This document shows positions 7,165 through 64,000 of a stretch of DNA of 64,000 nt, piece after piece. This stretch comes from Buxus sempervirens. Lineage: Eukaryota; Streptophyta; Magnoliopsida; Buxales; Buxaceae. How positions within the stretch are numbered: position 1 is the first letter of the stretch; each line of letters begins with the position of its first letter. The position numbers and the translations under genes are program-made. The notes below the pieces were generated by a model, which ran no database searches, was not told where the DNA came from, and worked only from the letters and a program-made list of their open reading frames with translations. The stretch spans positions 34,080,213 through 34,144,212 of the forward strand of contig OX387185.1 of NCBI GenBank assembly GCA_947561395.2, given 5' to 3'.

Positions 7165-7169
7165 ATACC

Positions 7170-15740: not shown

Positions 15741-15919
15741 CGCACGTGGCAAAAAGCTGCATACGTGGTGAGTTGCGCAGGAAAATATATCGGGGATCAA
15801 ATCCGTAAATATCTAAATGTACAAAATATCCCAGGGACTAAATCTGTAAAAATCCGAGAATATCGGATTAAATTGAAATTGGCCAAGGACTAAATCTGAA
15901 TTTTTTAGATTTTCATGAC

Positions 15920-20495: not shown

Positions 20496-20628
20496 TGAGA
20501 TATTCGTATCTCACCCTACTTCTATTCCATTTTTTTCAGCTGATACGCGAGAGGGGGATCTCTTAGACTTCCAGGGAGAGATAGCCGAGTATTCACCGGA
20601 GGATTATTATTATCCAGATCTTGTCTGA
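20496..20628 (+). other. R1 UUCG-loop hairpin, acceptor-like site and short acidic exon-like block
   Basis: TGAGATATTCGTATCTCA (20496-20513) folds as a 7-bp stem with a TTCG loop. Ten bases on, a pyrimidine tract ends in CAG at 20539, and an open block follows to a stop at 20628, giving the acidic peptide end GEIAEYSPEDYYYPDLV. R2 has the same hairpin and an analogous block ending EEDYYYLP; R4 has one ending RPEEYY. Whether it is translated is unknown. Confidence 0.6.
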
Positions 20629-20700
20629 GGTGGATTGATGTTATAGACTTAGCATTTTTGTAAGTGTGAAAACTCACACTCCTGTTATGGCAAATGATTG

Positions 20701-27602: not shown

Positions 27603-27649
27603 GCATGCACCAATCTTTAGAATTTTTGGGTCCTCTTCGGTTCCCAGGT

Positions 27650-29320: not shown

Positions 29321-29388
29321 ATGAGCACTCTAAAGTACCTTCATTAATGAGTTCCTATGCTTTTCTGAATTAAGCAACAATCCCAGTT

Positions 29389-35594: not shown

Positions 35595-38500
35595 GGTTGC
35601 AGATCTGAGTCTTTGAGAACGTCAGGGAGCAATGATTGCAGTAGGGACCGAAGAGCTTGATTAAAAGAAAAAAGAAAACAAAGAAAACTATTAGTATCCC
35701 ATTAAATCATGTTTACACACCCATGAATGCGTGCATGCAGGCTTGGTGAACATGAGTTTGGAACTTTCCTTGTGTTCATATTTTTTCCTTTTTTGGATTT
35801 ATGGTTAAAATAACCTTATTAAAAAGAGGTGATTGATATGAAAAAGATCAATCGACAGAATTTTGTTGGAGTATTCTAGGGCCTCCAACATGTCCCACAA
35901 AGAGGTGATGTGGCTATAGTAAAAGCCTATAGTCAAATCAAGAATTGGAATTACACAAGCTTCCAAGGGCTTATGCTTTGGTTGGTACGAAAAAGACCTA
36001 CCAATGTTGGAATATTCTAGGGCTTCCAACATATCCCCCAAAAAGAATGAGATGCCTAAAATAAAGCTTTTGGGCAAATCAAGGCTTGGAATTACGCAAG
36101 CTTCTAAGGGCTTATGCTTTGGAATTAAGGCTTCCACAGCCTCTTGAAATTACGCAGGCTTTCAAGGGCCTATGAATTTCTAAATTAAGGCTTTAGAAGG
36201 CCTATGAAGATAAAAATCTGGAATTTCAGGCTTCCAGGGTCTTATGAGTTTCTAAATTAAGGCTTTAGAAGGCCTATGAATATTTTGATAAAAATCTGGA
36301 ATTTCATGCTTCCAGGGTCCTATGAGTTTCTAAATTAAGGCTTTAGAATGCCTATGAAGATTTTGATAAAAATATGGAATTTCAAGCTTCCAGGGTCCTA
36401 TGAGTTTCTAAATTAAGGCTTTAGAAGGCCTACGAAGATTTTGATAAAAATCTGGAATTTCAGGCTTCTAGGGTCCTATGAGTTTCTAAATTAAGGCTTT
36501 AGAAGGCCTACGAAGATTTTGATAAAAGTCTGGAATTTCAGGCTTCCAGGGTCCTATGAGTTTCTAAATTAAGGCTTTAGAATGCCTATGAAGATTTTGA
36601 TAAAAATCTGGAATTTCAGGCTTCCAGGGTCCTATGAGTTGATTTTCTGAAATTCCAAGGCTTTCAGGTGCCTACAATATTTCTGATTTCCCCTTAAGTG
36701 CTCTTGAGTTAAAAAGAGACTCAAACCGCTCTTAAGGAGATGATTTATTTGAAATTTTCCTTTCACTTGATTTTTAAATGATTATTTGCTTGGAATTCAA
36801 AGGTTTCCAAGTGACCCCATTACTCTTTGGAAGAAATCTAAAAAGTTTGAATACTTTATGATTAAAGACTTCTTATTTAAAGATTGATTGGATTTTGCTC
36901 CATTTTAGGAATGAATTGAGCCTCCTCCTTATTCTTGTATTGGATTGAATTTTAAGCTTGAAATATATTTTTAAAGCTTATGGTCATTTCCAAATTCAAT
37001 TCTTAAGGTTGAAGTAAGATTGGGTTGGTTATTTGAACCAATTTTCTTTTGATCATTTACTTCACTTAAAATGGGTTAAGCGGTCAAATTGGATGAAAAG
37101 AGCCCAATATGGACTTAACCCCCGAATTGAGGTGCTTGACCTGTTTTTTGGTTTGAACCAACTTTTATTTTGTCATTTTCACCTTTGAGTTGAGTTAATT
37201 TGTTCAATTTAGGTGAATATATTCAAAATGATCTTAATCCTTTGATTTGGGTGCATTTGGAATGGTTTAAATGCCATTTATCTTATTTGGAACCCCTGCC
37301 CATTTGCTTGTATGACTTAGGGATGAAAGGACCCAGAAATGTTTGATAAGCAAGGCTGAAACAGAATTTCGGCTTAAAACCGTGTATTCAGAACGGTTTG
37401 GCTGAAATCCTATCCAAACTGCGGTTGCAGCAAAAATGCAGGCAACCGCATACTCAGGACGGTTTTAAGCCAGAAATCAGATTTTCGAATTGTTTCTTTT
37501 CCCAATTGATTTCATTAACTTGATTACTTGCCCAAACTCATTGTTCACCATTGGGTGGCTTCCAGATTGCCCCAAATTGGGCATTTGACACATCAAATGG
37601 TACTAAAAACCCACATATACCATGAACTGTATGAGATTGCATAATGGCATTACAAACATGCATGAAAAGATCCCTTACAATAAAGGAAATGAATTATAAT
37701 ACAAATTGGCCTTCAAGGGCATGAATCAAAAATAAAAATACAATTTAGCCTTCTTGGGCTTGAGAAAGAGAATTTCTAAACTAAAAAAAAAGGACCCTTT
37801 GCACCAGCAGCTTCTGGGTGGCCTTCCCACACAAACTTCCTGCAAAAAAGAGGATTAGCTATATTTAAACAAAGGAGGGCCTAGGCTCCCTCTCAAAAAT
37901 GGACACCCAATGCATGAATCTTGGACTTTGGGTTGCCTCCTATGGGCATTTGGGGCGAATGACACCTAAGAAGAGTAAAAACTCTCCCTATGGGCTACAC
38001 CAATCCTAGGATACAGTAGCTTTTTGGGAAAGAACAAAATCCCATCAAATGGACACCATGAGCTTGATTCTTACAAAGCATAGAGGTCATCACAAGAAAT
38101 AAACTGAAAATACCTTGTTACCTTATGTTTACCTTCAAAATGGTGTCCATATCATACCTTGGGTCACCTGAGCCATGCAAAACGGCCTTCCCTCAATTAC
38201 AAACCCTTTTCCCATCGCATTTGGTTTACTTTGGCCAAAATCGTGTTTCTCCACCTTCAAGCGTGGGGGTTTTGGGTTTTGGCTTATTGGCAACTTAGAG
38301 CTCAAGCCTAGTGTATGACCAGAATTCTAGATCCACCATGTAATCACATCATTGGCTCAAAGCTTCTAAGGTGAATGTTTTCACTTTCGCTTTCCGAAGT
38401 AACGACCTCGGTGCGCCAAGCTACACACATTCTTTGTTCAACTTCCTATAGGTTATAGGTAGGCTGTGTAAAAAAGAAAAAGGTGCACAAGTGCATTTGA

Positions 38501-39068: not shown

Positions 39069-41412
39069 TGTGAGACATGGAAAAATGTCACCTAGGATGA
39101 CTTCCGATATCGTCACGTGGGGATCAATAAAAATAAAGAGTCGCCACCATCCAATGTTAAGGTGTGAATGGACACCAAAGGGTTCATAAGAGCCAAATAG
39201 AGCCCAAGTAGCTCTAATATAAGGAAAAATCTAGAGATCAGGTAAGGGGAATTATTTATGAGCGGGGGAAGGTGTTAGGCACCCCCACTCATTCGTCTAA
39301 GACGGTTGCCACATGCTTGCTTATGCTAAGGATGGTTTGCTAATCAAAAGAGACAAAGGTTGCTTAAAAGTAAGCAAAATGTAAGTGATTATTCCACATG
39401 AGTAGTCCAATGAGTTTAGACTCTCCTCATGGATATATCACTTTAGAACTTCATGAGTGAAGTAAAATCCAAGTAAAATTTGAAGCAAGACCAATTCAAG
39501 GTAAATTTGGAAAAATCAGATTATGAGAACTTGAAAGCTTCGATTAACCATAACTCACTCAATTTAAATCCAAATCCATTGAAACCAAAGCCATTTGAAA
39601 ACTGGTATATAGTAGGGTATACGGTAAAAAATTTAACTCAATCCGATTTAAAACGAGAGAGAAATCCACATCTGAAATCTGCTGTTATAACTCGGAAAAA
39701 GTGGTGAGTAGGCATTTTCAAAGTCTTATTCGTGGAGTTTGGCTCAATAAAAATCCATGAAAATTTTCATGGAAGAAGTATGTGGTGCCATCTTTCCAAA
39801 GAAAAAAACCTCACACCAAACTATATCCAGATGTGGCTTGTGCGCTCTCTTGAACAGGCCTAGAAGACCATAGATTAGCTCTGGACTATGCCAGTGAACA
39901 GCTCTGAGTCAATCTAGCACACAAGGCACAAAACGGATCAAAATCTGCTGAAACCAGTTGGAAATGAAAATAGACTTCTCAAGGAAGACTCAGAAACTAA
40001 AATCACTCGAAACGGATTAAAACTAAGCAAATAGTGCACCATCAAAGCGGCAAGTTCAGCAATCTGGGCTGAACTGACTTACAGACTTTGAACAGATGGT
40101 GTTAAAAATTGGCTCCATAAAAGTAAACGAAATTTTCCAGATATGAACTAGACATGCTCATCTATCACATGTCTTTAGAATCACTCAAAAATTCATCCCG
40201 AGGATGAAGTTATGAGCATTCTAAGAGAGGCCACAAATGCTACCCTGTTTTGAAGTTTTTTGAAAAGAAAACCAAAACTAGTGCAAGTGAATTTGACCAA
40301 AAAACTTGAAAATCAACAAAAACAATCTCATGAAGTTCTAGAATTCATTCTGAAGCCAATAACCTCAGATTTCCCATATTAAACATAGAAATCCAAGATC
40401 TAGCTTATTGGACGAAAATAGTGAAAAGTGTGTGAATAGGTGAAAATCCATTCTCTAGGAGAAGGCTGGAATCCTTTGCTATTGAGAGCAAGGATTCATA
40501 CAATTTCTCCTGAAGCAAATGCAAAAACTTCAGAAAAATCATCCATAGGCTCAAAATAACCAAATAGCATGCTCTTCATCACTTGTAGGTTCTAAGCCTA
40601 GAGGATCCATTCCTACTTCTTTTTCCCAAGGCTCTTTCTTCACGTTTTATGGCTAGAGAGGATTCCCAGGTACTTTGGAAGAAGTTTGGGGTTGCAAAAA
40701 TGCACACAAGGCCTTACACTACAGAAAGGTAGAAGATGAGAGTGCTGGAAATGTAAAGAGGAAGCTGGAAATGTAAATAGAGCTTTACCTTGGTAGCTTG
40801 AGCTTTGAGTAGACAATCCAGCAGAGTTCCTCTTCTTCTTGCAGAGCTTCTATGCTTCAAATTGCCAACCATTTGCAAGAGGAGGACCCCTCTATTTATA
40901 GGCCAAGCCAAGGGTAGAAAGGTCCCAAGGGTAGGCCTAAAAACTCTTCTAGATTATTCCAATTCTCCTTAAAGGCTTGAATTGGAGTAATTTAGAAAGT
41001 TTCGGAGGCTGAAATAGGGAGTTCAAGTCCCTGAGAGAGAGGTAATATGCGTAAATAAGGCTAAGAGATCGAGCCATTTCGCAAATCCCCGAAACAACCA
41101 AAACCGCATACACAGTGCGGTTTCCACAGAACCGTCACTATATGTGCGGTTTCTATGCAAATTCACCTCAACCGCACATACAGGGCGGTTCCAATTCAGT
41201 TACACTCGTCATGATTGCTGTCGACGTGGCTCAACGGTCGAAGCTTCCGGAAGCCACGTGGCAGCTTACGCGAGAAGCATGAACATCAACCGTGCTGTGT
41301 GTGCAGTCGCACAGAGCGGTTGAGACCAAATTCTCAGAAACCGTATATTCAATACAGTTAGCACCACTTTTGAGTGTTTTCTTATGTTGAAGTGCAATTT
41401 GGGGTATCTACA
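39069..41412 (-). repeat. 5' LTR of element A
   Basis: A 2,344-bp direct copy of 7867-10218, bounded by TGTGAGACATGG and GTATCTACA, and followed by the GGGAA duplication. It holds the minus-strand TATA box (about 40892-40902), the PBS-like TGGCGACTCT (39137-39146) and the palindrome array at 41099-41360. The promoter here would drive gag-pol. Confidence 0.97.
41099..41360 (-). promoter_or_regulatory. U3 palindrome array of element A 5' LTR
   Basis: Same ACCGCA/TGCGGT palindromes as in the 3' LTR (for example AACCGCATACACAGTGCGGT from 41102), lying about 200 bp upstream of the TATA box on the element's strand. The two LTR copies differ at several CpG-containing positions, as expected from methylated-C decay. 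Confidence 0.7.
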
Positions 41413-43155
41413 GGGAAAAGTCGCCACCATTCTTTTTAGGTGTGAATGGACACCAAAATCATCAAAACAAGCACAAAGGCAAAACTAGAGTAAAATTAAT
41501 TCCACTTTAAAATAAAAAATCCAGAGATGGGTAAGGGGATTAAATTATGAACAGGGGAAGGTGTTAGGCACCCCCATTTACCTACACAGGTGGTTGCCAA
41601 GTGTTGTTAATGCTCAAAATAAAGAAAGCTTGCTAATTAAAATAATCAAAAAGGCTTGAAAAGGATTAAACACATGTATGATCCCTCCACATGAGAAGTC
41701 CAATGAATCTTAGACTTTCTTTTATGAAAGTATCACTTCTAGGACATCCCCATTAATTGTAAATCAAAATAAAACTTGAATACAAGCAAGTGGAGGCAAA
41801 TCCGGAAAACTCGGTAAAGGATGGAGCCACTTGACCATAGATCATTCAAATCAAATTCAAATTGAATCAAACCAAATCCATTTGAAAGATTATGATAAAT
41901 AAAAGATTCAAGAAAATTTTCAAGTAGATCCGATTAAAATCCTAAGAGTTATGCTTGTTTGAAATTCACTGTTATAAGTTGATAAAAGTGGTAAGTGGGC
42001 AACTTTGAAAACCTATTTGTGAAAATTTGCTCCATATAAATCTTTGAAAATTTGCAAGAATGAAGTACATGGTGCCATCTTTCAAATGAAATAAGCCTTA
42101 CATGAAACTTCATTCGGATGTGACTTGTGTGACCTCACGAACATGCCCAGAGGATCACAGATCAGCACATAATTGTGCTATGGGACAGTTCTGAGTAAAT
42201 CAGACACACAAGACACAAATGAAAGAAAAAAATTTTGAAACCAATTCGATTTGAAAGCATACTCATAAAGGAAAACACACAAATCAAAATCACTTAAATT
42301 GGACTTAAATCGAGCAAGTGGTGCTCAGTCAAAGTGACAGGTTTAGCAATCTGGCCTGAACTGACCTATCGACTTTGATCGAATGGTGTCAAAAAAACCA
42401 CTCCATAAAAATTGCTGAATTTTTGCAGACACAAACTAGACAATCCCACCTTTCACATGTCTTTAGAATCACCCCAAAATTCATCCGGATGATGAAGTTA
42501 TGGGTGTTCTAAGATAGGGTACAGGTGCTGTCCATATTTGGGACTTTTAAGCAAAATCAAGTCAAAATAGTGGGCAAGTGTATGTGATCTGTGTGATCTG
42601 AACGAAAATCATCTGGAAAAATATTGAAAAACCTCCAAAAGGATATAGGACAAGAATTTGGCTCACCATTCTCTTTGATTGGAGAGAATATACCTAAACC
42701 CCCAAAATGGAGCAAAAATGCCCAAAACAGAGAGATTAGACCGAGAGGTCTTCTATATCCAAAGAAAAACTTGCTCGTATTCTTTTAAAAACCATTCAAA
42801 AATGTCCAAGAAATGCTTGGGGCCATTCATTTTAGATCTACCATAATGAATACGATGGATCCAAAATATAAGCCTATTTCGACAAAACGAGTGCGATGTG
42901 TGCATGTGTAAAAATCATCTCTTTAAATTAATCAACACATCACAACATATAACATTCAAAACATATCAATCAAATGGGGGTTCTAATCACTAAGGTTCCA
43001 TTCCCATTCTCGTTTCCCCTAGTTCTCTCTTCACCTTTTACGGTTAGAAATAATCTTGAGGTACTTTGAGTAGGGTATGGGGTTTCACACAACAGTAGGC
43101 TATTAAGAGGGTTTTATAACTAAGGTTCCATTCCCATTCTCGTTTCCCCTAGCTT
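41413..43155 (-). mobile_element. Remainder of element C 5' LTR, truncated
   Basis: Starts with the GGGAA duplication left by element A and continues the LTR begun at 7800. It aligns by eye with element B's LTR (52505 onward) and more loosely with A's. It ends near CCCCTAGC at about 43155, some 640 bp short of the end seen in B, so its U3 promoter part is missing. A ~115-bp phrase around TTCCATTCCCATTCTCGTTT is repeated at 42998 and 43129. Confidence 0.8.
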
Positions 43156-43170
43156 CCACTATATAGTTCT

Positions 43171-43420
43171 ATTGTTCTTCCTGAATATAGATATTAGAGC
43201 TAGCATGAGTAAAAACAATCACAAAAGACTTGCCCTGGTATAAAACATTCAAAATGATCCTCCAGTCTGTAGTATTAAGAATTGAAATATTTACATCCTA
43301 CTTCCACAAATTAATAAATCCTTCATGACAATCCACTTCAAGTTGAGTGAAGAAATTAGGAAATTTAACTTTTCTAGCTAATCTAGAAGCTAATTTCTCC
43401 TTTGCTAATGTGAAATCTTG
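43171..43420 (-). pseudogene. L1-type LINE fragment, ORF2 endonuclease-like
   Basis: Minus-strand translation gives KLASRLARKVKFPNFFTQLE, then GFINLWK and DVNISILNTTDWRIILNV and GKSFVIVFTHASSNIYIQEE, which follows the pattern of the middle of plant L1 apurinic endonuclease domains (the GG-LLW-stretch, then a beta strand ending in a Tyr/His-containing loop). There is one stop codon within it (TAG after INLWK) and no flanking catalytic residues are visible, so it is a dead fragment. It probably belongs with the zinc-knuckle fragment at 47960-48160, which lies upstream on the same strand, split by later insertions. Confidence 0.5.
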
Positions 43421-43583
43421 TTTTTATAATGGATTCACTAACTATTGACCTTTGATATATAGGAGAGGAGGTCTAGTGAATGGCAGAGGGCAGTCTAGTT
43501 GGTGAAGTGGTAAGCCAACAGTCTTATTTATGTCATTGTTGTATGGTAAGAAATTTATGTATTTGAAATTAATCGAGTGATAA
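43421..43583. other. Unassigned sequence left of R2
   Basis: Nothing recognised. It is probably continuous with 46085-47950, since R2 sits between them with a clean target duplication. Confidence 0.4.
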
Positions 43584-43829
43584 TGTAACGCCCCGGATCC
43601 GTGTTGTTCATTAAAGATATAACACGTCTCACGGAGGTTAGGCAAGGATCGTTAATCAATTTATGATCGCTGGATAATCATACATCTATAACCTGACAGA
43701 GTGCACATTTCCATTTATGCAAAATTGTAACATTTAAACTGAACTGGAATCATATGGTTCATCCCCAATTAACTTTAGTACATCTCAATTAATTCAAGTT
43801 CTCAAATTCAGAACAGATAACCTACAAGT

Positions 43830-43948
43830 CTAAGGAAGGTAATAGTAGTCTTCCTCCCTATATGCCTCAGCAGGATCTACCCCAGTAATCGCCTCACCAC
43901 GAGTATCTGAAAAACAGAACAACAACAGAGTGAGATACGAATATCTCA
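43830..43948 (-). other. R2 hairpin and acidic exon-like block
   Basis: TGAGATATTCGTATCTCA on the minus strand (43931-43948) is identical to R1. After a pyrimidine tract ending in CAG comes an open block whose peptide ends EAYREEDYYYLP (stop at 43830-43832). Confidence 0.6.
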
Positions 43949-44894
43949 GCGAGTAGCACATGCATGCAGAAATAGTTGATCACATTTAAAACTATGCATC
44001 GACAACACTACAATACGTTTAAACAACCAACATCAATTTCCCAAGTTCAAATCAAACAAATCACATCTCAGTTAAGTACGATAACACATCTATTGGTCAA
44101 TGTCATGACTATCGTTTAGTTGATAAATTAAGCATGCCAAGTAGACACTCCACACCTCCATGTACACAGTTCCGGCCTACTCAGGGTTTCGGATACTCTG
44201 AAATGACGGCCTACTCAGGGTTTCGTCATCCAATGCAGGCCTACTCCCCGGGTTTCTGCATTGACAACCAGGCCTACTCAGGGTTTCTGGCTGCTCTACA
44301 CCGGTCGTGGCAACACACAAGGCCATGCAATTCCAACAACCAACAATAACATCACATTACTAAGCTTAAACATCTGGATCCAGGACAAGCTAGACCAAAA
44401 CAGTAAACATCGTATAATCTCAATTTCAATATCAAAATAAAACCATTCAGTCCACATCATGTAAAAACTCATCACAATTCATCACCTGTCCCTCTGGACC
44501 AAGCAGTACTTCAAGTACTTCAGTATTTTTCTCATTTCCGTAACACATGTCATTTGGAAATAAAACTCAAGCATTCATACCAAAGAATTCCTTTCAATAC
44601 ATTTAAAGTTTCCAACAAGTGAAACCAGAAATACAATAACTTCTCAATCAAAACAGTGTATAGAACAAGGAAAAGTAACTGGTAAGTGTTACTAGTTTGG
44701 TGTCCGGCACAATACTCATAAGTAACCTAAACTCAACTTAAAAACTCTTAAGAGGTTCACTAAATTTTCCTCTAATAATTTCATAGGCAAAATGGTTTCC
44801 CAGGTTCCTAACCAAGTGAATAGTGAAGTGGTTTAACCCCTAAGTAATGCAAATACTCTTGGTCAAATCAGAACTTCCATTTCAGTAAGCAAAA

Positions 44895-48287: not shown

Positions 48288-51200
48288 TGTAACGCCCCAG
48301 ATCCGAGTTATGTAGAAAAACCATAACTCATCTCCAGAGGTTAATATGTAACGCAGGATCGCAATATCAGAGTGAAGGAAAAACATGAATACAACAATAA
48401 CTATATAACAGAGTGCGCTAAAATATTCCCAAACTAAAATAAAACTCACATGTCCAAGTAACTACCCGCAAGTATCGCCCTCTCCAAAAGCAACTGAAAA
48501 CAAAACAAAAACAAACGGGATGAGATACGAATATCCCAGTGAACAGCACATGCATGCACAAATATATTTAGTTCAGTTCTAAAAACATGCCATAGTGCAA
48601 CACATATACGATGATGATAACACGCATATTCCGAATAATCCGACTAAACTTCAATAATCCAATTTATATCAGTGCGGAAAACCATCAGGTAAATCAAGCA
48701 ATAACAATCCGTCTCCAATCCCGAAGATAGCGATAAAATAATGATTAACTGACAACAACATAGCGAATAATCATAATTTCGTATCTCAAGATATAATTCC
48801 AGATATACCAATGTCATATAACACAAATTCTTCTCATAACCATGCCTACTCCTCCAAATGTATATTCGGCCTACTCAGGGTTTCGGCATTGACAACACCG
48901 AACCACTCAGGGTCACAATGCTGCTCTACATCGGCGGGAGATACAAATACCCAATAACCGGTAAACAATATTCCATGAACCATAAATACCAACAAACCAG
49001 CGAATAAAACATATCACGTCAAACAAAATCAAATACCAACATTGGTCAATGTCATGTAGTTGTTTACATTGGTTAATTGACATGCCAAGGCGACATCCAC
49101 CCCTCCATGTACACAGTTCCGGCCTACTCAGGGTTTCGGACACTCTGAAATGATGGCCTACTCAAGGTTTCATCATCCAATGCCGGCCTACTCCCCGGGT
49201 TTCGGCATTGACAACAAGGCCTACTCAGGGTTTCTGGCTGCTCTACACCTTCAGTGGCAACACTCAAGGCCATGCAATTACACCAACGAAGCAATAACAT
49301 CACATTACTAAGTTTAGACTCTAGATCCAGGACAAGCTAAACAAGTAGTAAGTATAAAACTAGCAAATCAACCCAATGTATTTTCCATCATGTAAAACTG
49401 ACATATAGATCAACATGTTCAAGTGCATAACATAGGTCACTCAGGACCAGCTTACTCCCTCATGGAGTCCTCAAAGTAAATTCTCAATATTTTTTTTCCC
49501 AGAATAGAATAAGATAAGATATGATTCTAAACCGGCCACCGATATAAAACAATATTCAAGTAAATCATTCCTGAAGTGCGCCATGCATTCAAAGATGAAC
49601 TAGCATAATAGTGTAGATGTATTTCAGCAAAACAAATATGGTTTCAAAACTAACTTTTTAGAAGAAAGCACATTATACAAAAACGATTGCAGCATCCAAA
49701 CTTCGATTAAACATAAATCAGCAAAATAGTTCCTAGATTCTCAATTTCGCTTTCATAATCCAAATCAATCAAAGCGAATATTATAAAATCCTTAAAAACA
49801 TTTTGGATGAGTGGAATAGTCTTAGGATCCCCTATAAGGTCACCATACCAAAAAGCAATCAATTCCGAGACAAAAAGTTCTGGGGCCTCAGAATATTCTA
49901 AGTTTGGTTAAAAACGTTGACTTTTGGTATATAATTTTTCTAGACAAATCTACAAGGAGTTTTTGGCTCAAATTTTGGTTGTAGTCTATTGAAGGGTAAA
50001 CACATCTCCTAGAATTTTATGGGCTTCTGAATCACTCATCTGGGTATCAAACCCAAAACGGGCTTTTGATAAAAACCGAGAAAACTGGAAATTTAGGCAT
50101 GAACTGGAAAGTTGACTTTTTATTGGCTGGGAATTGGACCTTGGAAGTATTTTTATTGGTTCCAAATGGGGGTAAAACCTTATTTACATGTAAAGACTTA
50201 AGTAAATGGAGCAATAAATACACAGGACATTTACTTAAATATTGTCTTTCATGTAATTAAGGGGCTGTTTTCAACAATTCAAACTCATTCTCGCGCGAGA
50301 TGAGCGTGAGCTCGACAAGAACAAAACTTATTCTCGCACTGACTAAAATCGTTGGCGCTAGGTAGGCGCCAAGTCGGCGGACACCACCTACGAGTTATGA
50401 CTCTCTGTTAACTCTACATCTCCAAGACTGACCCAGTTTCTCACCTCTGTAATGACTTTTCTACACCCCTACCATCTTCCATAGACTATTAGACAAGATT
50501 CGGAATTAATCTAACAATCTGTATTTTTCGCTCTAAAATTTTACCAAGAACATACGCTAAATCAATATTCTCCTAAAATATGCATAAGGCTAAACCCAAT
50601 AAACAAAACCCAAAAACCTCTGATTAAAACGATGCTACTCACTTGATCTGCAAATCCCCTGGCTCAACAACTCTAAATTCTCCGCTGATCCCCAACGGCA
50701 GCAGCTCCGAGTTACCATTTGTCTGTGGATCCCTTGATCTGCTGCTAATCTAGACAAGCTCTTCACAGCAGCCCAGCCGCTTATTTCACCGACCTCCTCC
50801 GGACACCTCCGAGCAACACTTCTGCAACTCCGTTTTAGGTTTTTGCGATTTGGAGAACTCTCCTTCTTCTATTTATAAGTTTCGATGCCCTAAAAAAAAC
50901 ACCCCACCTCATGATCTGTTGCGTGCTCATCCACCGCAACATCCTACCTAGGCAACCACCTACTCTCTAATTTAATTTTGCCACTCCACCAAGACCCTAC
51001 ATTAGCACCTTCCAATTTATAATAAATTTCAAACACACTATTATCAATTTATTTAAACCAATATTTGATGCCTATTTAACGTAATTTAAAATCTTCATAA
51101 TTTAGGCTTGGGAAATTCCGAGATTACCCTCACTCGTTCCAACACCGAACTGCCAAAATCCAAATCCATGGAAGTCCAATAACCAAATTTTCCCATTTTA

Positions 51201-52443: not shown

Positions 52444-54223
52444 TGTGAGACACGGAAAATCAATTTAATGACTTCCTAATCATCACACGGGATTCATTAA
52501 AAACAAAGAGTCGCCACCATTCTGTTTAGGTGTGAATGGACACCAAAATCATCAAATAAGCACAAAAAGGCAAAATTAGAGTAAAAATAACTCTATAAAA
52601 AAAACAACCAGAGATGGGTAAGGGGATTAGGTTATGAACAGAGGAAGGTGTTAGGCACCCCTATTCATCCACACAAGGTGGTTGCCAGGTATTATTCATG
52701 TTAAAATAAAGAATGCTTGCTTAAAAAGGAAAAAAAACATAAAAATAACAAAAGTGTATGGTTTTTCATATGAATATCCCGATTAATTCAGAATCTTCAA
52801 TATGATCATACCATTCTAAGGGTTTCATGATTAAAATAAAATTGAGATAAAAATCAGATAAAACCAATCTAAAGAGAAACCTGAAAAACTAGCTTTAGGC
52901 TAAACCATTAAAGGTTGAAAAACTAGATTGAAATCTTTTGATTAAATCATTGAAAAATAAAGTTACTTGGAATACTGATCTGATCTAGATCTCTCAATAG
53001 TGGGGAAATAGAACCCCCATTCAACCCATATTGATGAAAAAAAATCAAAAGGGAGAGTTTAGACCATAGGATCCTTTCTCCAAGATCAAAAACAATTTTA
53101 AAATCATATCATGAAACCCTATAGGTTACTTTCAGGCTTTTGGTTTTAGATCTACCATATAGATCATGGTAGATCCAAAATCCTAGCCAAATATCACCAA
53201 AATTAAGAAAACAGTGCTATAGGTGCAAAGGTGTGAAAAATCCAAATTTTAGTAAAAAATGGGGATCTCATGCTATAAACATCCTGGATTCATAGAATTT
53301 CTCCAGATTCAAAATAAAATCAGTAAAACATTAGCTGGATAGTAAAAGCAACCACATCTCACAGACTATAGCACATGGGGGTCTACCCTACGGATCCACC
53401 TGTTCTCTTTTCCCCTAGCTCTCTCTTCATGTTTTATGGCTAGAGAGGAGTCTTGAGGTACTTGGAGATAGGTTTGGGGATACAAACACAATCAATGGCT
53501 TTATTCTATAAAAAAAGGAAAAGAATAGATTATAGGGTTCTATTCTAGGGATCCACCTGTTCCCCTTTCCCCTAGCTCTCTCTTCACGTTTTACGACTAG
53601 AGAGGAGTCTTGAGGTACTTGGAGGCAGGTTTGGGAATATAGTTATAAACTAGGCCTTATTCTACAGCAATGGAGAAAATTAGATTATTTCTAGAATTGA
53701 AGACAGAAAATAAAAGGGAAAAGGGACTTACCTGGATTAAGGAAGCAGAGCAGCAGGGATTCCTTTCTTCACTTGGAGCTCTTCAGACTTCAAATTAATG
53801 GCCATTTGCTTGAGGATCTGCCCTCTATTTATAGGCAAACCCAGGGGTATGGTTGGTCCAAAGGGATATACCAAGATCTTCCAGATTGAATTGAAAACAG
53901 GGATAATGCCAATCCATTGCCAAATAGGATAAATAAGAGAATTCGAATGGATAAATAAGAGGATTCGCATCTCCCAGAGAGATATTTGGGTGCAGATAAG
54001 GCTCAAAAATCGAGAAAGGATAAATTCACACAAAACTCCCGTGCCCGTATATACATTACGAGCATATGTTGCCCGTAGATAAATTGCGGGTGCGACCAGC
54101 CCGTAAACAAAGTACGGGAAATGCATGCTTGATGAGATTTTATGCATTTTTTACCTGTTTCAAATCCCAATTACATATTTTCAATTATTTTATCATTTTG
54201 TAGTGCAATTTGGGGTGTCTACA
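52444..54223 (-). repeat. 3' LTR of element B
   Basis: Starts TGTGAGACACGG and ends GTGTCTACA on the plus strand, 1,780 bp. It has a minus-strand TATA box (CTATAAATAG, 53825-53834), the AAGGTGTTAGGCACCCC motif near 52647 and a PBS-like TGGCGACTCT at 52507-52516. A ~140-bp phrase around CCCCTAGCTCTCTCTTCA is repeated at 53412 and 53570. Confidence 0.92.
53825..54120 (-). promoter_or_regulatory. U3 promoter of element B: TATA box and GCCCGTA palindromes
   Basis: The TATA box at 53825-53834 lies about 210 bp from a cluster of palindromes at 54045-54120 with arms like GCCCGTA and TGCGGGC or TACGGG (for example CCCGTAAACAAAGTACGGG at about 54101-54119). The position matches element A; the word does not. 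Confidence 0.72.
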
Positions 54224-54240
54224 ACTGCCCCCTCTTTGCT
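54224..54240 (-). other. Polypurine tract of element B
   Basis: Minus strand AGCAAAGAGGGGGCAGT abuts the 3' LTR, as in element A. Confidence 0.85.
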
Positions 54241-54572
54241 GATAATTGGAACCAATTACCAACAAAGAGCAAAAAGACCCACAAATTGCACTTTTTGAGA
54301 TTTTGTCTAACTAATTGCAATTTGCAAGGATTAAAAAGATGATTTTGGAAAAAGAATTTGTGTAGAGGATTTGCTGAAAAGTCCCTAACCTAAAGGGGCA
54401 AATCCTCCTCTCTAGTCTCACTGAGCACTCGTGGCTATGAAGTGAGATTTGAGACAAATTTTAAAACAAAAGTGGATAGAGTGGCAATCCTTGCAATTTA
54501 AAATCAATATAGACATTAATCTTCTGAAAGTGTGGAGAAAATGATAAAATATGCAATTTTCTGGTTTGCCCA

Positions 54573-54660
54573 TATTTGTATTGCGGGCAAGTGATGACCG
54601 CAATCTGAACACGGGCGTGCATGACGGTATTACCTTTGCGGGCATCTATTGCCTATATAT
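54573..54660 (+). promoter_or_regulatory. Putative promoter of antisense gene 1 in element B
   Basis: GCCCATATTTGTATTGCGGGC (54568-54588), then CGCAATCTGAACACGGGC and ACGGTATTACCTTTGCGGGC-like pairs, are followed directly by TTGCCTATATATC, a TATA-like box on the plus strand at about 54650. Confidence 0.62.
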
Positions 54661-56082
54661 CTTCTATGGGTTTTAGGGCTTTCTTATTCGAGACCGCGAA
54701 TGCCTTTTCATTTCTTCTGCTCGTATTTCTCTTCCAAACCCTTGAGACCACACCTTCTCTTACGGTTTTTCCCTTCTCAGGCGACAACTTCATCTTTTCT
54801 GGTGACTCTCATTCTTCTCCGGCAACCTTCACCATCTCCGGCAGCTGTTCTAAACTCTTCGGTGCTTGTTGTGGTTGTTGCTTTTAGTGGGCATGCTCCA
54901 TTTCTCTCACTGTTATGGTAGCATTCCTTTATTGCCATCGAAGCTTTTGCTGATTGATTTCCTTCTCCAGTAAGTGGACTTCTTCAAATTTTCTTTGCAC
55001 ATTTGAATTTGGCTGAAACAGGTATGCCGACTCCTAAAGTTTTATGTTGATGCCTCATCCATGAATGTCTGATTGCTATTGATCGAACCACATCCCCAAA
55101 TTTCATGCTTGCTTATCCTGATTCCTTATCTGTTCTTGATTGACACGAATCCTCAATTTTTGAAGCTTGCTTAGACTGATTTTGATGCTTTGTATCTATG
55201 AGAATGAATTATCAATTCATGTTTAGCCCATGCCCAAATTTCTACATTTTACGGTTATTGAGCTGGCTAATCCTTAGTCTATTGTGTTTACTGAACTGTT
55301 GACTTGCTGTCTTCAAACATCCTTGCTTTTATTGAAGAAAATCCTTGAATTACTGTATCTGTTTTGACAATTGTTCTATGGATGCCCTGAATACCTGTAT
55401 GATCCTCAATTTCTGTGTTTGACCCATGATTTTTATTCTTGACCTAATAGATTAGATCTTTGGCTTTTGAGTGAGCAGATTCCCAAATTGATATACCCTA
55501 CTGATTTTTCCTGCCAATTGCCCATGCATGAACTATATTTGCTTAAGATGAACTTGCTTTTCCCAAGAGTTTTTCTGCAAATTTCCCATGCATGAACTAT
55601 AATCTTCTGGAACCACATTCATGATTGACACATGGTTGACTTTCTTGTTTATGCCATCACTGTTCAAAAATCTGAATTCTTCAATCACTTGAACGCTCCG
55701 AGCTTTTTGCTAACTCCCTGAAATTACACAAAATTAGTAGTTAGGGAGTTAAGGCATTCTACACACAAATTAGAGTTCTTCTAATTTAGAAATAAACCCA
55801 TAACTTTTAAGCATAAAAATTTTCCTTTCTTTTTTTTGGTCATATAGAGAGAATATGTGAGAATTCTGCACTTCCCACATATAATTTTTATATATTTTCT
55901 TGATTAAATCAAAGACAAATAATAAAAGGTAAACTCCTTCAGTTGGCTCTTGATTTGATTGGGAATTTCTGAAACATTTCTTTTCCTTTTTCCTGCAAAC
56001 GATTAAGCTTAGTTAAAATGAAAATCCAGCAATAAAGATTTTTAACAAGAATAATGAAACATCTCCCTGATTTGAACCACAG
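54661..56082 (+). other. Presumed leader and leader intron of antisense gene 1, element B
   Basis: The first 300 bp are CT-rich like 5' untranslated sequence and end near a good donor, CCAGTAAGTGG (about 54965). AT-rich, T-rich sequence follows up to CCACAG immediately before the ATG at 56083. No coding signal is seen. The equivalent layout is present in element A. Confidence 0.5.
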
Positions 56083-59031
56083 ATGGCCCGCATTCGATCA
56101 GCTCCTAAGGATCCTGCTGATGAGCCCTCTTCCTCTAGGGTTTGGAGGGATCCCACTGATGTGGCATCTTCTTTGGGAGTAGCGAGGGACTCTGATTCTG
56201 ATGTCCCTGATCTTCCTTCTGAGGGCTCGCATGAGGCGACCCCAGTGGTATATCTTCACCTTTCTGAAATTCAATTTCTCTCTCAAAATCCTTCACCCTG
56301 ATTATTTCTTCTTTCCAATTGTTTCCTTAGCCGGTAGTTGAGGCTCCAGGCAGAGGCAGGGGCCGTGGCGAGCGACGAGCTAGAGGCAGAGATGGAGGCC
56401 GTGATGGGGGCCGTGGAGGAGGCCGTAGGGGAGGTCGTGGCAGGGAGGAGGCTCAGACTAGGGTTGAGGTCTCTGAGGCGATCGCGGCACAGATTAGGGA
56501 TACCGACCTATTACACGGCCTGAAGACTCATCCCTCAGCCTGTATTAGGGCGGATATCCCTTTGGTGTATCCTATGTCCCATTACCAAGGGATCTGGGCC
56601 AACTTCATTAGGTTTCTTGGAGGTTGCAGTTCATCCTTCTGCCGGGAGTTGGGCTTGTTTGGTTTCGGCCTCTTCATCACCATCCCGGATGTGCGCTTGG
56701 ATCGAGCTCTTATTGTGGCGATGCTTGAGAGGTTCTTCCCAGAGACACTGAGCTTCCATTTTCCAGATATTGGATCAGGATCCGGCCGTCCGACTTCACG
56801 CTCATCATCGTGATTAGGATGACTGGAGATATTATCCCTGAGATGGTGATGCCAGATGCTGCGGAGATTGCGGTCCTTCTTGGATATGCGGCGGTGCCCC
56901 CGGAGGCCTGGGATAGAGGGAGACCTAGATTGTCTCTTACTTGGCTGAGAGAGACCTTCCGAGGGAGACAGCTCAGCCAGCTTGCTGCCAGCCATGCAGA
57001 CTTCCCCTTTGCTTTTCGCTTTGTCTTCCTCTACATGATGGGCTCTTGCTTTTTCCCAAAGAATACGACCTCCGTCAGCCCGCATTTTTTGAGTTTATTG
57101 GGAGATCTACAGCGGGTGAGGAGGTATGCTTGGGGGCCGCTTATTCTTGGCACCATTTTGGCTGGCCTGAGCCGAGCCGTTAGCGGCCTTTTTACTTCCC
57201 GAGGAGCCGGAGTTGGGTGCAGATTCTTCTGGCCCTTCTTGCAGGTGAAATACCTATTTCTCTATTCTTTCTTTGTCTTCTTCTCCTTTTTTATTCTTCT
57301 GACCCTTTTTTCTTCTTTTGTAGTTTTTTGCTAGGGTTTATATACCCTACTTCTGCCCTACCTCTACGATGCAAGAGGAGACGTATTCTATGGCTCGTAG
57401 ATGGTACCATGTGGAGCATGACTCTGAAAAGAGTCGGCCTAGGTCTGCCCGAGCTTATCTGGACCGGTTGTATCGGACTAAGGTAAGCTTCTTTATTTCT
57501 TCCTTTTTCCCTTTCCTGAATCACATGCCTAATATTCCTTTTTTGTTTCTCAGCTGTTCGTTCCTCGGTTGGAGGACATTCATGAGGTGCTGGCCTTGCA
57601 TGCTACTAGGGATGATGCATTTGCCTCTGACCAGAGGCGTCAGCGCTACCAGTTCTTTATCGGTCAGATGGGCAGCATCTGATATTGCAACGAGCACTTC
57701 TTTTATCAGCACACCGGAGAGCCCCGGATTCCTATCATCCCTCCAGATACTACCCCTTCTTTTCCTCCCACGCCTGTCGAGCCTACTCAGTTCTTAGATT
57801 GGACAGAGGCAGAGACTTTGTTGGAGGAGGGTGACTATGATGCCTAGTTTAGGCAGGCTTCAGTTGGGTGCCTCATGCCACCCATGCCTATTCGTGGCGG
57901 AGTCACTGAGATAGGAGGGGTAGTGATCAGGGCCTACGATACCACGGTATGCCTTTCCCTCTTTGATCTTCCATTCTTATATTCTATTTGACTTGACATT
58001 TCTGAAACCCTTTCTTCTATTTTAGGAGGCTCAGTTGGCAGAGATTCAAGCTCGGTATGCTGATATAGAGCGCCAGCAAGATGCCGCTATTACTGAGCGG
58101 GACACCCTCCTTATCACCATTGCCGACCTCAAGGGACAGCTTGCTAGGGCACAGGACCAGGCGGGTCCATCTCATACTCAGGTTAATTCTTTCACCCTTT
58201 TCAATTTCTGCTTCTTATTTGTGCTTATCCTGTTTTGATTAGAATTCTTCTTCTTATTTTCAGGATAACACAGCCGGTCCTTCTTCACCTTATTATACAC
58301 ATCCCCGCGGCGAGGTCTTTTCCATGTCACTGATGCAGCTCGTGACTCCTCCTGGATCAGTAAAGGTGCCTACAGCAGAGCCCGAGATAGAGACCGAGGT
58401 TGCACCTACCGCTGCTCCTACTACTGAGGACGTGCCAGAGTCTGCTCCAGCACTAGAGACAGCTCTAAATATAGCCACTAGTGTAGATATCGAGATGGAG
58501 CCTGCCGAGGGGGTTGCTGTGACCAAGGAGGTGCCTGAGGCAGATCCTGCTACTGTCGAGCCTGCAGTGGACCTGATACCTGCTGCTGGTGAGAGTGCTG
58601 AGCTTGCTGTCGAGCCTGTTCCTGCTGATCCTGCCATGGAGCCTGCTATGATAGAGGAGGTGCCTGATGTGACAGAGGAGGTGTCTGAGGCTGATCTTGC
58701 TACTGCCGAGCCTGCAGTGGAGCCTATTCCTGCTGCTGGTGATATGGAGCCTGCCAGAGATACAGATGTCCCAGAGTCTGCCCCTGCCGTCCCTGATGCG
58801 GGGCCTGTCGGAGATGTAGATACCTGGGGGTACGTTCCTCCTGATCATCCAACTGCCAGCCTTGTGCCTTTATATATGATGTATGATATTCAGTGTATTT
58901 TGGGCAAGATGACCCGTAGTACCGCTCGTCGTCTTGTGGCGCATGTTTTCGAGCGCCGACGACCTTCAGGCAGCGGTCGAGGCAGAGGACGTGGTCGTGG
59001 CCGTGGGGGTGGACCTGGGGAGATAGATTAG
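56083..59031 (+). pseudogene. Antisense gene 1 of element B, PMD-like with RGG boxes
   Basis: Starts MARIRSAPKDPADEPSSS, parallel to element A. The second block (about 56332 on) begins with an RG-rich box (GRGRGRGERRARGRDGGRDG and more), then the PMD-like core (ELGLFGFGLFITIPDVRLDR, ETLSFHFPD, RMTGDIIPEM, YAWGPLILGTILAGLSRAV, FFWPFLQV). Shorter blocks follow at intron-like positions matching A, including a coiled-coil stretch (ARYADIERQQDAAITERD). The last block (58262-59031) is an acidic Pro/Ala/Glu repeat tail that ends in a second RG run, GRGRGRGRGRGGG. RG boxes usually bind RNA. The protein is probably nuclear, but that is inference. The copy has a few breaks. Confidence 0.75.
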
Positions 59032-59241
59032 ATTAGGATATCACATGTATATTTGTATTTGACAAATGATGTACACTTCCATATATATATATAAAGAAAT
59101 TTGATTCATTTTTCTTCATTTATGCTCTTTTCTACTTTATTTCTTCCTTGAATTGCATGATATATGTTTAAGCAGGGACAGGTGAAGCCTGGGAAAGCAT
59201 TAAAATTGAAATTTCCCATTTTTTGCATTTCTTTTCCAAAC
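59032..59241 (+). other. 3' flank of antisense gene 1, element B
   Basis: AT-rich, with a TATATATATATAAAG run near 59080 just after the stop. Probably the 3' untranslated region. No gene is seen. Confidence 0.4.
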
Positions 59242-59380
59242 AACCGTATTTATATTGCGAACAAGCAATGCCCGTAATGTAAATGCGGGCACGCGGTGCC
59301 CGTATTGTCCATGCGGGCACATGGTGCCTGTAATGTAAATACAGGTTTTATCGTATTTCTGCTTTTTCTATATAAACACA
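59242..59380 (+). promoter_or_regulatory. Putative promoter of antisense gene 2 in element B
   Basis: Three to four palindromes in tandem (GCCCGTAATGTAAATGCGGG at 59270, TGCCCGTATTGTCCATGCGG at 59297, CCTGTAATGTAAATACAGG at 59327) are followed 20 bp later by TCTATATAAACA (59367-59378). The first ATG of gene 2 is about 90 bp on. This is the clearest example of the palindrome-TATA-gene order. Confidence 0.72.
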
Positions 59381-59467: not shown

Positions 59468-61134
59468 ATGGCTTCCTTCGCACCGTTCCCTTCTGCCGAT
59501 GAAGCTCCTCCTGCAAGACAACCTGTTAGATCAAAACCTCATAATCTCACTAGGTACAATGTTGTGGATTCCTTCTATGATAGGTGGGTTAACTCTATGA
59601 CCCTTGATGAGGAAATTCGTTGGGATTTCATCCACTTAGGTCACATCCTACATATCCCTAAAATTCCCTTTAAGTGGGAAATCATTGAGGCTTTAATTGG
59701 GCACTGGGTACCTGAATTGAATCTCTTCCGCTTTGATGACAAAGAGATGACTCCTACCATTGAAGAAATTGAAACAATCCTTGGCCTAAGGTTTTCTGAA
59801 AAAGTAATGAACCCGCCCCTTAAGCCTAGCTACAAAAAGGAGGCATCCACTTTCTTGGGTATAGAGAAGAAGGATTTAGGGGGTTCTGATACATTGTTGA
59901 CTTTGTCCAAGACCTTTCTGACTGAAAAACTTCTAAGGGGTGAGGACAAGGATGCCCGGTTTAATGCTTTGACTTTGATAGTGGTCAACCAATTGCTTTT
60001 TCCACGCGGTGATGATCAGGTTGACTTGGCTCTCATCTCAGTTGTCTGCCAGGTTAGGGAACGTGAGAGATTGGCCCCTATGATTTTGGCAGAGATATAC
60101 CAAGCCTTAACTGACTGTTATTTCAAGAAGAAGAAGCGTTTCCTTGCATGTGCCCCTATCCTACAGGTAAAATTTTTTTTTCTTTATTCTTTTTTTTTCT
60201 TTTCTTTTGAAATAAATTAAAATACTTCCCTTTTCTGCAGCTTTGGTTACTTGACCACCTGAGTCAGGTTGAAGAGATAACTCGCTGCTTTTTTCCAAGA
60301 TTTAAAGTTCCTGTTTTGATGAGCAACAGGGGGTGTCCTAACATCCAAGGCAGCAAGCAGGGCTAGTTCACTTTCTTGGGTACTCTCTAGGATGATCAGG
60401 TGAGATAGCTTAGCGCTTATCAGCCCAATCCAGAAACAGTGATCAGCTTCAGAGATAGGAACTTTCTGGTTCTAGCAGGCTTGAAATCTGATGTTCTCTA
60501 TCTTCCTTTAAGGGTTTTTCGGCAGTTTGGAGTGACCCAGGGGATCACGATCCCAACTGGATATGAGAACTTCCTTGGGCCACTTACATCAGCCACCATG
60601 GGGCTAAATGCTCAGTTAATGAATGAGTGGTCCTATGCTCGTTTTCTGCGGGGTCCGGTCTTTTCTGAGTCACATGTGAAGGACTATCATTTCTGGATCA
60701 AAGAGCAAGTGTAGAGTCATGCCCCAGTACCGGAGGATCCTCTTGCAATTCTTCCCCCTACTTATGAAGATGTCTTGGAGTCTGAAAGGGCAACCCACAA
60801 GCGCCTTCAACAAATATGGGTACGAGAAGCCGAAGAACTCAAGATAAAAGGTATTGATCTGGAGAGGCAACTTGAAGAGTAGGTGTCTTGCCGCATTGCT
60901 ATGGAGAAGAAACTGGAGGAACAAAGATAAGCTCGTCGCTTTGAAGTCCGAGCGATGCAGAAGAAATATCAGGATTCCCTAGCTGACCTTAGGGCTTTGA
61001 AGATCAAGCAATCACGTTCAGATAAGGTCATCTCCTTTTTTAACGATCCGGATGCAGAGGGAACTTCTGGAATCATTGCAACTCAGGCGGCTCTGATTCG
61101 GGAGCTTAAGGAGCAGTTAGGGGATAGGGATTAG
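59468..61134 (+). pseudogene. Antisense gene 2 of element B, DUF7745-like
   Basis: Start chosen at MASFAPFPSADEAP because element A's copy also starts MAS; an in-frame ATG at 59423 is possible. The DUF7745-type region runs LTRYNVVDSFYDRWVNS, WEIIEALIGHWVPELNLFRF, MTPTIEEIETILGLRF, NALTLIVVNQLLFPRGDD and ISVVCQVRERERLAPMIL, ending CAPILQ at an intron-like gap (about 72 bp, GT/AG) that is conserved in A. LWLLDHLSQVEEIT opens the next block. The end is a Lys/Glu/Arg-rich coiled coil finishing LKEQLGDRD. It converges on pol. The first block is fully open; the rest has a few breaks. Confidence 0.78.
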
Positions 61135-62122
61135 ATCTTTTTTTATTGCATTTTTTTTCCTCTTTTTTTTTTTCTTTTTTTTTCTTTATTTTCTTTTTTT
61201 TCATACCTTTATACAAAAGCAAACTCCAATAGTGGAAAGACAAAGGATTTAATTCAAAAATAGGTTTTATATTATTGACCTCAGAATTCTCAGATGCTTG
61301 TAAAAACAAAAGTTTTATGAAAAGTATTTGATTTCTCATCACTGGCCAAAGTATAGTTTTTTTTTTAAATTTGATCCAAAACATTTAATCACATATAATT
61401 AAAGGAATTAAAATCAGGTTGAATAATGAAAAGGGTAATCCAAGCAATAGGGATCGATCAAATCCGTCTATCCTGTGACCTTTAGAATCATCCCTAAATG
61501 ACTTTTCCTCCATGACTGACCCTGCTGTTCCCAATCTACTCAGTTTCTAGTGCTCATGCTAATTTCAAACTTGGACCACATGATCAACTCAACCTTTGAT
61601 TCTTCTCTTCTTCTTTTATTCTTTTGCCACTATTGCCCGTAGCGCCAGTTACGGTTTTCACTAAGGCCGGCTTCTGTATTCCGTCATCACCAATCTTACT
61701 CTGGAAGTTGAATGAATATACTAAAATCACCGAGAGCTTGAGAATAGGACGAAACAAAAGCTAAGCTCGGTTTATGAAAGAAAAGGTATTAAAGGCTCAA
61801 AATTTTCCAAATGTGAAAATAGGTCAACCGGACTTACAGTCGTGATGAATTTGATCCCATTCCCCAAAGTGTATTCTTTTCTTTCCTTTTTGTATTTGGC
61901 TTTCATTTGCCACTATTTTTTCTTTTCTTTTTTTTTTCTTTTTTTTCCCCAATTGGCTTTGCCCCTATTGGCTTTGCCCCAGTTTGTTCTGCCCCAGTAT
62001 AAGACTGTAAGTCCAGTTTAGGTTTATCAAAAAGATGAACAGGCTCAAATTGGCTTGACTAGGGATGAAAATTTTGGGAAATAAAGAAAAATGGCCTTGG
62101 ATCATTTCCTAGTAATATTCAA
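61135..62122. other. Spacer between antisense gene 2 and the end of pol, element B
   Basis: Starts with a long T-rich tract (61137-61200) and has another at 61915-61945. No gene. It aligns with 23313-24391 of A. I see no clear GCCCGTA palindrome cluster here, in contrast to the cluster in A's spacer. Confidence 0.6.
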
Positions 62123-64000
62123 TCAATGAAAATACCTCTTTACTGCATCAGAGTTAATTGGCTCAGGAAAATTTTTCCCATCTATTTCTGTTAAGATGAG
62201 AGCACCCCCTGATAGGACCTTCTTGACAACATAAGGCCCTTCCCAATTTGGTTTGAATTTTCCACGAGGATCTTCCAAAAAGGGTAGGATTTTGTTTAAT
62301 ACTAAATTTCCTTCTTGGAAAGTTCTAGGCTTCACCTTCTTATTGTAAGCCCTGGCCATTCTCTTCTGGTACAATTGGCCATGACAAATCGCTTTCAAAC
62401 GCTTTTCCTCTAATAGATTGAGTTGATCATGTCTTGACTGTATCCATTCAACTTCTTCTAATTCAACTTCCATCAGCACTCTCAGTGAAGGGATTTCCAC
62501 TTCCACTGGTAAAACTACTTACATCCCATAGACTAAGGAATACGGGGTTGCCCCAGTAGAAGTCCGGATCGAGGTTCTGTAGGCATGTAGAGCAAGCGGT
62601 AGCATTTCATGCCAATATCTAAAACTCACTACCATCTTTTGAATGATTTTCTTTATATTTTTATTCACTGCTTCTATGGCCCCATTCATCTTTGGTCTGT
62701 ACGGAGCTGACTTGTGATGGGTAATCTGAAACTGCTCACACATCTTCCTCATATCTTTGTTCTTAATATTCAAAGCATTGTCTGATACTATGGCACTTGG
62801 CAAACCATAGCGACAAATGATGTTGTGCTTCAAAAACTTAAGAACGTGGATACTTGTGATGTTTGCATATGAAGCTGCTTCTACCCACTTGGTGAAATAG
62901 TCGATTGCTACCAAAATGAATTGGTGCTCGTTTGATGCCTTTGGAGAGATCATACCAATGACGGCTATGCCCCACATGGAGAAGGGCCACGGTGATGTCA
63001 TATTGTGCAACTCATTTGGGGGTGCATTCTTGTTATCAGCATATACTTGGCAAAGATGACACCTTTTGACATGTGTATAGCAATCGTGCTCCATCGTCAA
63101 CCAATAGTATCCCAATCGCAGAATCTTCTTGGCAAGCATGTGCCCGTTCATGTGGGGTCCACAAACTCCTCCATGTACAGTCTCAATTAACCTTTCTGAC
63201 TCAGTCTTGGCGACACATCTGAGTAGGATATTGTTGTGTGATCTCCTGTACAACTGTCCAACACTTAGTAAGAACTGACCTTCCAACCTCTGTATTGTTC
63301 TTTTCTCAGTAGAAGTGACGTTTTCTGGCGAACTTCGATCATTTAGGAAGTTTTTGATGTCTTGAAACCATGGTACTTCCTCCTCTGGTGCCCCTTCTAG
63401 AACAATACAATATGCAGGCTCATCTCTGACTTCAATTTCCAATGGTTTGATATTAACACCTTCTAGCATGTTGACCATTGAAGCCAATGTTGCTAGAGCA
63501 TCTAAGAATTGGTTCTTAGCCCTTGGCATATAGTTGAAGGAAATTCGAGTGAATTTGGTGCTTATTTCTTCCAAATATTGGTGATAGGGGATCAATTTGT
63601 GATCCTTAGTTTTCCATTCACCAGTTGTTTGGAAGATGATAAGATTCGAATCTCCATATACGTCAAGTTCCTCCACTTTATGGTCTAAGGCTGCTTGTAA
63701 CCCAATTATGCATGCTTCATACTCCGCAATATTATTTGTGCACTGGAATCTCAACTTTACTGCGATTGGGATGTGTAACCCATCTGGCTTGACAAAAACT
63801 GCCCCTATTCCATTTCCATTCATGTTGGCGGCCCCATCAAAGAACATTTGCCAAGAGCATTCACTTTCCTCTTCTTCAGTAAATAGTATTGCCTCATCAG
63901 GGAAATTTGTCTTAAGAGGTTGGTATTCTGGTCAATGATGTGCAGCTAGGTGATCTGCAATGGCTTGACCTTTAATCGCCTTTTGAGTGATGTATGTGAG
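62123..64000 (-). pseudogene. pol: pol of element B: RNase H-like domain, integrase and C-terminus (fossil, cut by window edge)
   Basis: On the minus strand, 62519-63847 is one open block: FFDGAANMNGNGIGAV, CTNNIAEYEACIIGLQAAL, DVYGDSNLIIFQTTGEW (RNase H-like), GGVCGPHMNGH and HVKRCHLCQVYAD (integrase zinc region), FILVAIDYFTKWVEAASYAN, RYGLPSAIVSDN and YRPKMNGAIEAVNKNIKKI (integrase core) and ALHAYRTSIRTSTGATPYSL. The C-terminal part (62123-62506) has RMARAYNKKVKPRTFQEGNL and NWEGPYVVKKVLSGGALIL. Integrase inserts the DNA copy into the host chromosome. Sequence continues to the right edge toward RT. Few breaks are visible. Confidence 0.92.

Follow-up and report, generated by a model that had tools for sequence, protein, structure and literature searches.

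Palindromic arrays with element-matched words in nested retrotransposons of Buxus sempervirens

Sireviruses, which are Ty1/copia retrotransposons, carry repeated motif (RM) boxes. These are element-specific palindromes with a CGG/CCG core, present in many CpG-rich copies, that lie upstream of the TATA box in the long terminal repeat (LTR) and again before an extra gene, ENV (section on these boxes in PMC2829016). In VANDAL transposons, short family-specific motifs are repeated in non-coding sequence, and passages of PMC5735166 propose that they evolve together with the element-encoded VANC protein. Here we describe arrays that resemble both, found in a stretch of 64,000 nucleotides of Buxus sempervirens DNA (the window; GenBank assembly GCA_947561395.2, contig OX387185.1, positions 34,080,213 to 34,144,212 of the forward strand). 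The window looks like plant DNA built of nested LTR retrotransposons. The elements concerned are A and B, each with two genes on the opposite strand (antisense genes 1 and 2) between pol and the 3′ LTR, element D, and three related solo LTRs denoted X1, X2 and X3.

Palindrome frame, spacing and words

Most of the sites share the frame CCG-N11-CGG, itself derived from words already seen. In its exact form the frame occurs 37 times in the window, far beyond chance (shuffle mean 3.23, maximum 8, 100 shuffles); by our own count 28 of these lie within the arrays described below and 9 outside. Allowing one mismatch gives 142 sites versus a shuffle mean of 96. Neighbouring exact sites no more than 60 bases apart yield ten distances: 28 and 39 (four times each), 41 and 51 (once each). 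Eight of the ten fall in the classes 27–29 or 38–40, as do 21 of 55 distances between one-mismatch sites (shuffle average 1.09, maximum 4). The two preferred spacings differ by 11 bases, about one helical turn. Pairs of dyads with the same word number 31 in the window, of which 14, again by our count, lie in tandem repeats (three at 2527–2755, five at 36178–36562) or in AT-rich sequence (six). A CG is present in the first arm of 17 of the 31 pairs (shuffle mean 0.017, maximum 1, 60 shuffles); among these 17, the pairs at 15850 and 50290 lie outside the described arrays.

A preliminary description of this DNA had placed palindromes in the U3 region of the LTR and before both antisense genes of A and of B, and arrays are present at all of these places. 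In B, three GCCCGTA-type sites in 28-base steps occupy the U3 of the 3′ LTR (54043–54119, minus strand; palindromy of the region 54030–54130 was reached by 0/500 shuffles). The array before antisense gene 1 (54568–54643, plus strand; 30/500, weak when taken alone) has TATATA just downstream, and TATATA also follows the four sites in 28-base steps that precede antisense gene 2 (59242–59346, plus strand; 1/500). The AACCGYA word of A is found in the U3 of its 3′ LTR (9908–10165, minus strand; 0/500) and in the counterpart of this array in the 5′ LTR (41102–41359, minus strand; 0/500). Further sites lie before antisense gene 1 of A (10564–10623, plus strand; 375/500) and antisense gene 2 (14863–14980, plus strand; 0/500), the last of the latter (14960–14980) being degenerate as judged by eye. 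The palindromy test was carried out per region with 500 shuffles, on regions picked after the words had been seen.

The word was also said to stand before every promoter, each time close to a TATA box. The second statement holds only in part. Sites with no promoter in sight also occur, in A between gene 2 and pol (23745–23860; 306/500) and between the 5′ LTR and gag (37378–37464; 9/500), as well as in D between the 5′ LTR remnant and gag (3193–3291, minus strand, word ATCCGA; 0/500 for the region 3160–3310). The A sites between gene 2 and pol and the arrays before gene 1 of A and of B are recognized by word and spacing instead of palindromy. Proximity to a TATA box is seen at both antisense genes of B, in X3 and, by eye, in X2, but not in the LTRs of A and B, where a TATA-like word starts 183–196 bases past the edge of the scanned region and ∼ 200–210 bases from the outermost site. 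A search for a TATA pattern after the arrays of A gene 1 and A gene 2 found none.

A clear palindrome word is present in two of the three solo LTRs, X2 and X3, and the two words differ. The LTRs of X2 and X3 are related, their likeness lying mainly near the LTR ends. Each has its own word before a TATA box and repeats it in another array close to the end of the LTR: ATCCGGC in X2 (30072–30170, plus strand, with a further site at 29930, 0/500 for the region 29900–30190; second array 32145–32204, plus strand, 0/500) and AACCGCA in X3 (6561–6735, minus strand, 0/500; second array 4819–4853, minus strand, 3/500). By eye, the 7-base spacer of the AACCGCA sites (6561–6735 and the A arrays) is often like YATWCAG, a weak further consensus that the spacers of the D and X2 sites resemble. 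The U3 of D would be expected to carry the D word; that part of the D LTR was not found in 42500–44500.

The words are AACCGYA in A, mostly GCCCGTA in B, ATCCGGC in X2, AACCGCA in X3 and ATCCGA in D. Off-word half-sites in B are AACCGTA at 59242 and GACCGCA and GACGGTA before gene 1. The words of A and B, initially taken to be simply different, both contain CCGYA, with CCG as the shared core, and differ mainly in the outer two bases (AA versus GC). Word similarity is explained by grouping the sites by element (P = 1e-4, regions chosen after seeing the words) and not by grouping the same regions by promoter position (P = 0.90). We also used a permutation without chosen regions, in which only bases outside the word-derived frame were tested, sites were assigned to elements by coordinates, and the two A 5′ LTR sites were left out as duplicates of the 3′ LTR. 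Here the agreement within elements and the difference between them were upheld (P = 0.0012 over 21 clusters; 0.00065 for 10 clusters of at least two sites; 0.025 when only A and B are compared).

Identity of the variable arm bases exceeds that of spacer and flank (given in this order) in A (0.52, 0.37, 0.26), B (0.60, 0.35, 0.31), X2 (0.63, 0.49, 0.41) and X3 (0.95, 0.36, 0.31) and is mixed in the three sites of D (0.58 versus 0.24 and 0.45); these figures are from regions picked after the words were seen, and they also count sites that fit the one-mismatch frame but not the word. Between A and B, the surrounding sequence had been said to align. It does so upstream of gene 1 (79% over 344 bases) but poorly around gene 2 and over most of U3.

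Element class and antisense genes

Element A (7867–41412, minus strand) has LTRs at 7867–10218 and 39069–41412 that are 96.7% identical, is flanked on both sides by the target duplication GGGAA and is inserted within the 5′ LTR of D. The 3′ LTR of B lies at ∼ 52446–54222, and B continues past the right edge of the window. The solo LTRs X1 (∼ 15058–18235, duplication CCCCT) and X2 (∼ 29387–33233, CCAGT) are nested in A, and X3 (∼ 4320–7165, minus strand, GGTAT) in D; their ends and 5-base target duplications were assigned by eye.

In A, the domains RVT_1 and RT_RNaseH at 26250–27728 are followed by a stretch 78.9% identical to the open reading frame (ORF) region of B. The B ORF at 62519–63931 contains RVT_3, which we read as the probable additional RNase H, followed by integrase. 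An additional RNase H between RNase H and integrase defines the Ogre/Retand elements, and a Plant Mobile Domain extra ORF is present in 57% of Ogre elements (passages of PMC6317226). When A and B are combined the additional RNase H is found here too, and A gene 1 and B gene 2 supply the Plant Mobile Domain above the Pfam cut-off. By domain content, and with the extra RNase H preceding integrase, A and B appear to fit the Ogre/Retand branch (Tat, Ty3/gypsy). Membership of two other classes was rejected. In copia elements integrase precedes reverse transcriptase, and the reverse transcriptase ORF of A together with the extra RNase H before integrase in B fits Ty3/gypsy Tat rather than Sireviruses. 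VANDAL elements are Mutator-like DNA transposons; the elements here have LTRs, 5-base target duplications and reverse transcriptase.

All four antisense genes lie on the plus strand. Gene 1 of A (11880–14660, ends approximate) has an exon that matches the Plant Mobile Domain with 50.5 bits (Pfam cut-offs: 34.9 bits for this domain, 26 for DUF7745). Gene 2 of A (18292–23330, ends approximate) is broken into pieces; of the two scanned, one gave 20.7 bits for the Plant Mobile Domain (below cut-off) and 41 for DUF7745 (above), the other no match. Gene 1 of B (56083–59031) has a frame break. Two of its pieces match the Plant Mobile Domain, both below cut-off (17.9 and 30.9 bits), and share 58 and 65% identity with the exon of A gene 1. 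The first exon of B gene 2 (59468–61200, end approximate) contains both domains above cut-off (42.9 bits for Plant Mobile Domain, 75 for DUF7745), with stops further on. Gene 2 is broken in both elements.

Several other features were observed. A G-patch domain lies in a minus-strand ORF (28307–29329) between gag and reverse transcriptase of A. Tandem repeats with dyads every 72–78 bases adjoin gag at like places in D (2075–2901) and A (35864–36664). Between the D LTR remnant and B, two related stretches (43888–44395 and 48474–49342) contain a repeated GGCCTACTCAGGGTTTC word. Searches for relatives gave none in viral_contigs with the B gene 2 exon and an A pol ORF, and in genome_contigs, with a B pol ORF, a single 22% match (contig titled Rhodospirillales bin), which was not used.

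Possible readers of the arrays

We tentatively favour, with somewhat less than even confidence, a model where a protein of a single family, most likely element-encoded, binds the arrays as a sequence-specific dimer. The DNA contacted by each dimer would be a dyad of 21 bases, in which the CCG and CGG contacts stay constant at a distance of 14 bases while specificity is set by the outer and inner bases. Dimers 28 or 39 bases apart would lie in nearly the same helical phase, so that neighbouring dimers would probably contact one another, as the two spacings suggest. Bound near the LTR promoter and both antisense promoters, the protein would switch the genes of the element together. The antisense Plant Mobile Domain proteins are candidate readers because A and B show no extra genes besides those encoding them, and these genes have the arrays in front of them; the reader would most likely come from one of the two and have an autoregulatory or anti-silencing effect. 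Such an element-encoded reader is plausible, and its co-evolution with the sites possible. More doubtful is the wider proposal that giant Ty3/gypsy elements encode, in their Plant Mobile Domain proteins, fast-diverging dimeric DNA readers whose specificity shifts in step with operator arrays at all element promoters, as a retrotransposon self-recognition code that can be shared between lineages. If the model is true, it would describe element-encoded regulation that evolves with its sites in retrotransposons, and if Plant Mobile Domain proteins read the arrays, the defined DNA target would make their function directly testable.

The sites had been called operator-like and ascribed to one factor. 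A frame common to the sites, two preferred spacings, agreement within elements and the arm identities of A, B, X2 and X3 support this, whereas D is mixed and X1 runs in reverse. Several observations weigh against the favoured model. X1 has no clear word, its arms are less alike (0.26) than its spacers and flanks (0.31 each), and its end region, although it passes the palindromy test (0/500), does so with other, CGCG-rich words. AACCGCA is common to A and X3, whose LTRs belong to different families, and so the word cannot be called family-specific. Only five elements, in one window, have a word, and four regions singly exceed 5% by palindromy (the sites before A gene 1, the A sites between gene 2 and pol, X1 U3 with 88/500, and the array before B gene 1). 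Compared by sequence with solved structures, the B gene 2 exon has no match and the A gene 1 exon has seven, none of them credible (ribosomal proteins, with an E of 0.44 at best). The predicted structure of the A gene 1 exon has a mean predicted local distance difference test (pLDDT) score of 37.2. With no solved relative and such a score, a DNA-binding surface of the antisense proteins cannot be argued. The passages of the literature searched hold no demonstration of DNA binding by Plant Mobile Domain proteins, one of them calls the function of this domain in retrotransposons unknown (PMC9289625), and the section on Sirevirus boxes names no element-encoded reader (PMC2829016).

Host transcription factors are a nearly equal rival: the host would offer several specificities, with each element lineage relying on one of them, and Sirevirus boxes may be a similar case. 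We place it so high because these boxes, with their CGG-CCG core and their position upstream of TATA and before ENV, are alike in anatomy and have no reader named in their section; in the same source the Citrus AATCCGGCTWRCCGGATT is, by eye, like the X2 word, and a database match of the boxes gave mainly sites of stress-related factors (PMC2829016). The word common to A and X3 across families points the same way. Outer bases that diverge while frame and spacing stay fixed are, however, easier to reconcile with one diverging reader family, and we are not aware of any plant factor that has a CCG-N11-CGG dyad, which counts against host factors.

There are three further explanations. We consider it unlikely that the palindromes act as RNA hairpins, either small-RNA sources or structural signals, rather than as protein sites. 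Six of seven folded arrays (7 of 16 regions were folded) beat their shuffles (z −3.73 to −12.08; B gene 1, −0.42), and Sirevirus palindromes are described as small-RNA hotspots in passages of PMC5311732 and PMC10760457. Fold stability, however, is a consequence of palindromy and adds no evidence of its own; hairpins could form just as well if the sites had neither a word nor a CCG in common and lacked the 28/39 spacing, and arrays upstream of TATA boxes would probably often be untranscribed. The arrays could instead be patches rich in CpG that are retained to keep promoters unmethylated and are read without much specificity, since observed/expected CpG is 0.89–1.41 in the seven arrays measured versus 0.54 for the window as a whole; two stretches of B have 0.18 and 0.32. 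This leaves the dyads, words and spacing unexplained, and we give it very little credence. Least credible of all is neutral segment copying or gene conversion within each element. It would yield agreement within elements, but in A, B, X2 and X3 neither spacers nor flanks have been copied along with the arms (D is mixed); the greater likeness of the arms in these four favours selected binding sites over copied segments.

Relation to known systems

The literature was searched and, among the matches listed, none concerned palindromic arrays in Ty3/gypsy elements that carry Plant Mobile Domain genes; a fixed frame, two spacings, agreement over at least three places of one element and a link to antisense Plant Mobile Domain genes were not found in print within these searches. 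Two other elements also carry additional genes. Retand has TRP28 antisense ORFs, which, unlike those here, encode the domain Transposase_28 (PMC11963269), and gene23 of Grande is transcribed from a promoter of its own and encodes a nuclear protein (PMC7264820); the passages on either contain no palindromic promoter sites. The Arabidopsis proteins MAIN and MAIL1 are, like the candidate readers here, Plant Mobile Domain proteins, and are tied to a promoter motif, DOWN, which we count in favour of the proposed reader. They differ in being encoded by host genes, and direct binding was untested in that work, as far as its passages go (PMC7156037).

The Sirevirus arrangement, palindromic boxes upstream of TATA and an extra gene, recurs in B, X2 and X3. 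In our sites the CCG half comes first and the CGG half second, versus CGG-CCG in Sirevirus boxes, which have short gaps between halves in the listed consensus and ENV as the extra gene (PMC2829016); the arrays described here belong to Ty3/gypsy elements and have a fixed N11 frame, 28/39 spacing and antisense Plant Mobile Domain genes. VANC motifs belong to another element class, are 8–9 bases long and lie in tandem repeats, and the passages concerned do not call these motifs palindromic; binding has been demonstrated for VANC (PMC5735166), whereas for our arrays it is predicted. The preliminary description named VANC as the closest analogy. This seems fair for the way of working, but in anatomy the Sirevirus boxes are closer.
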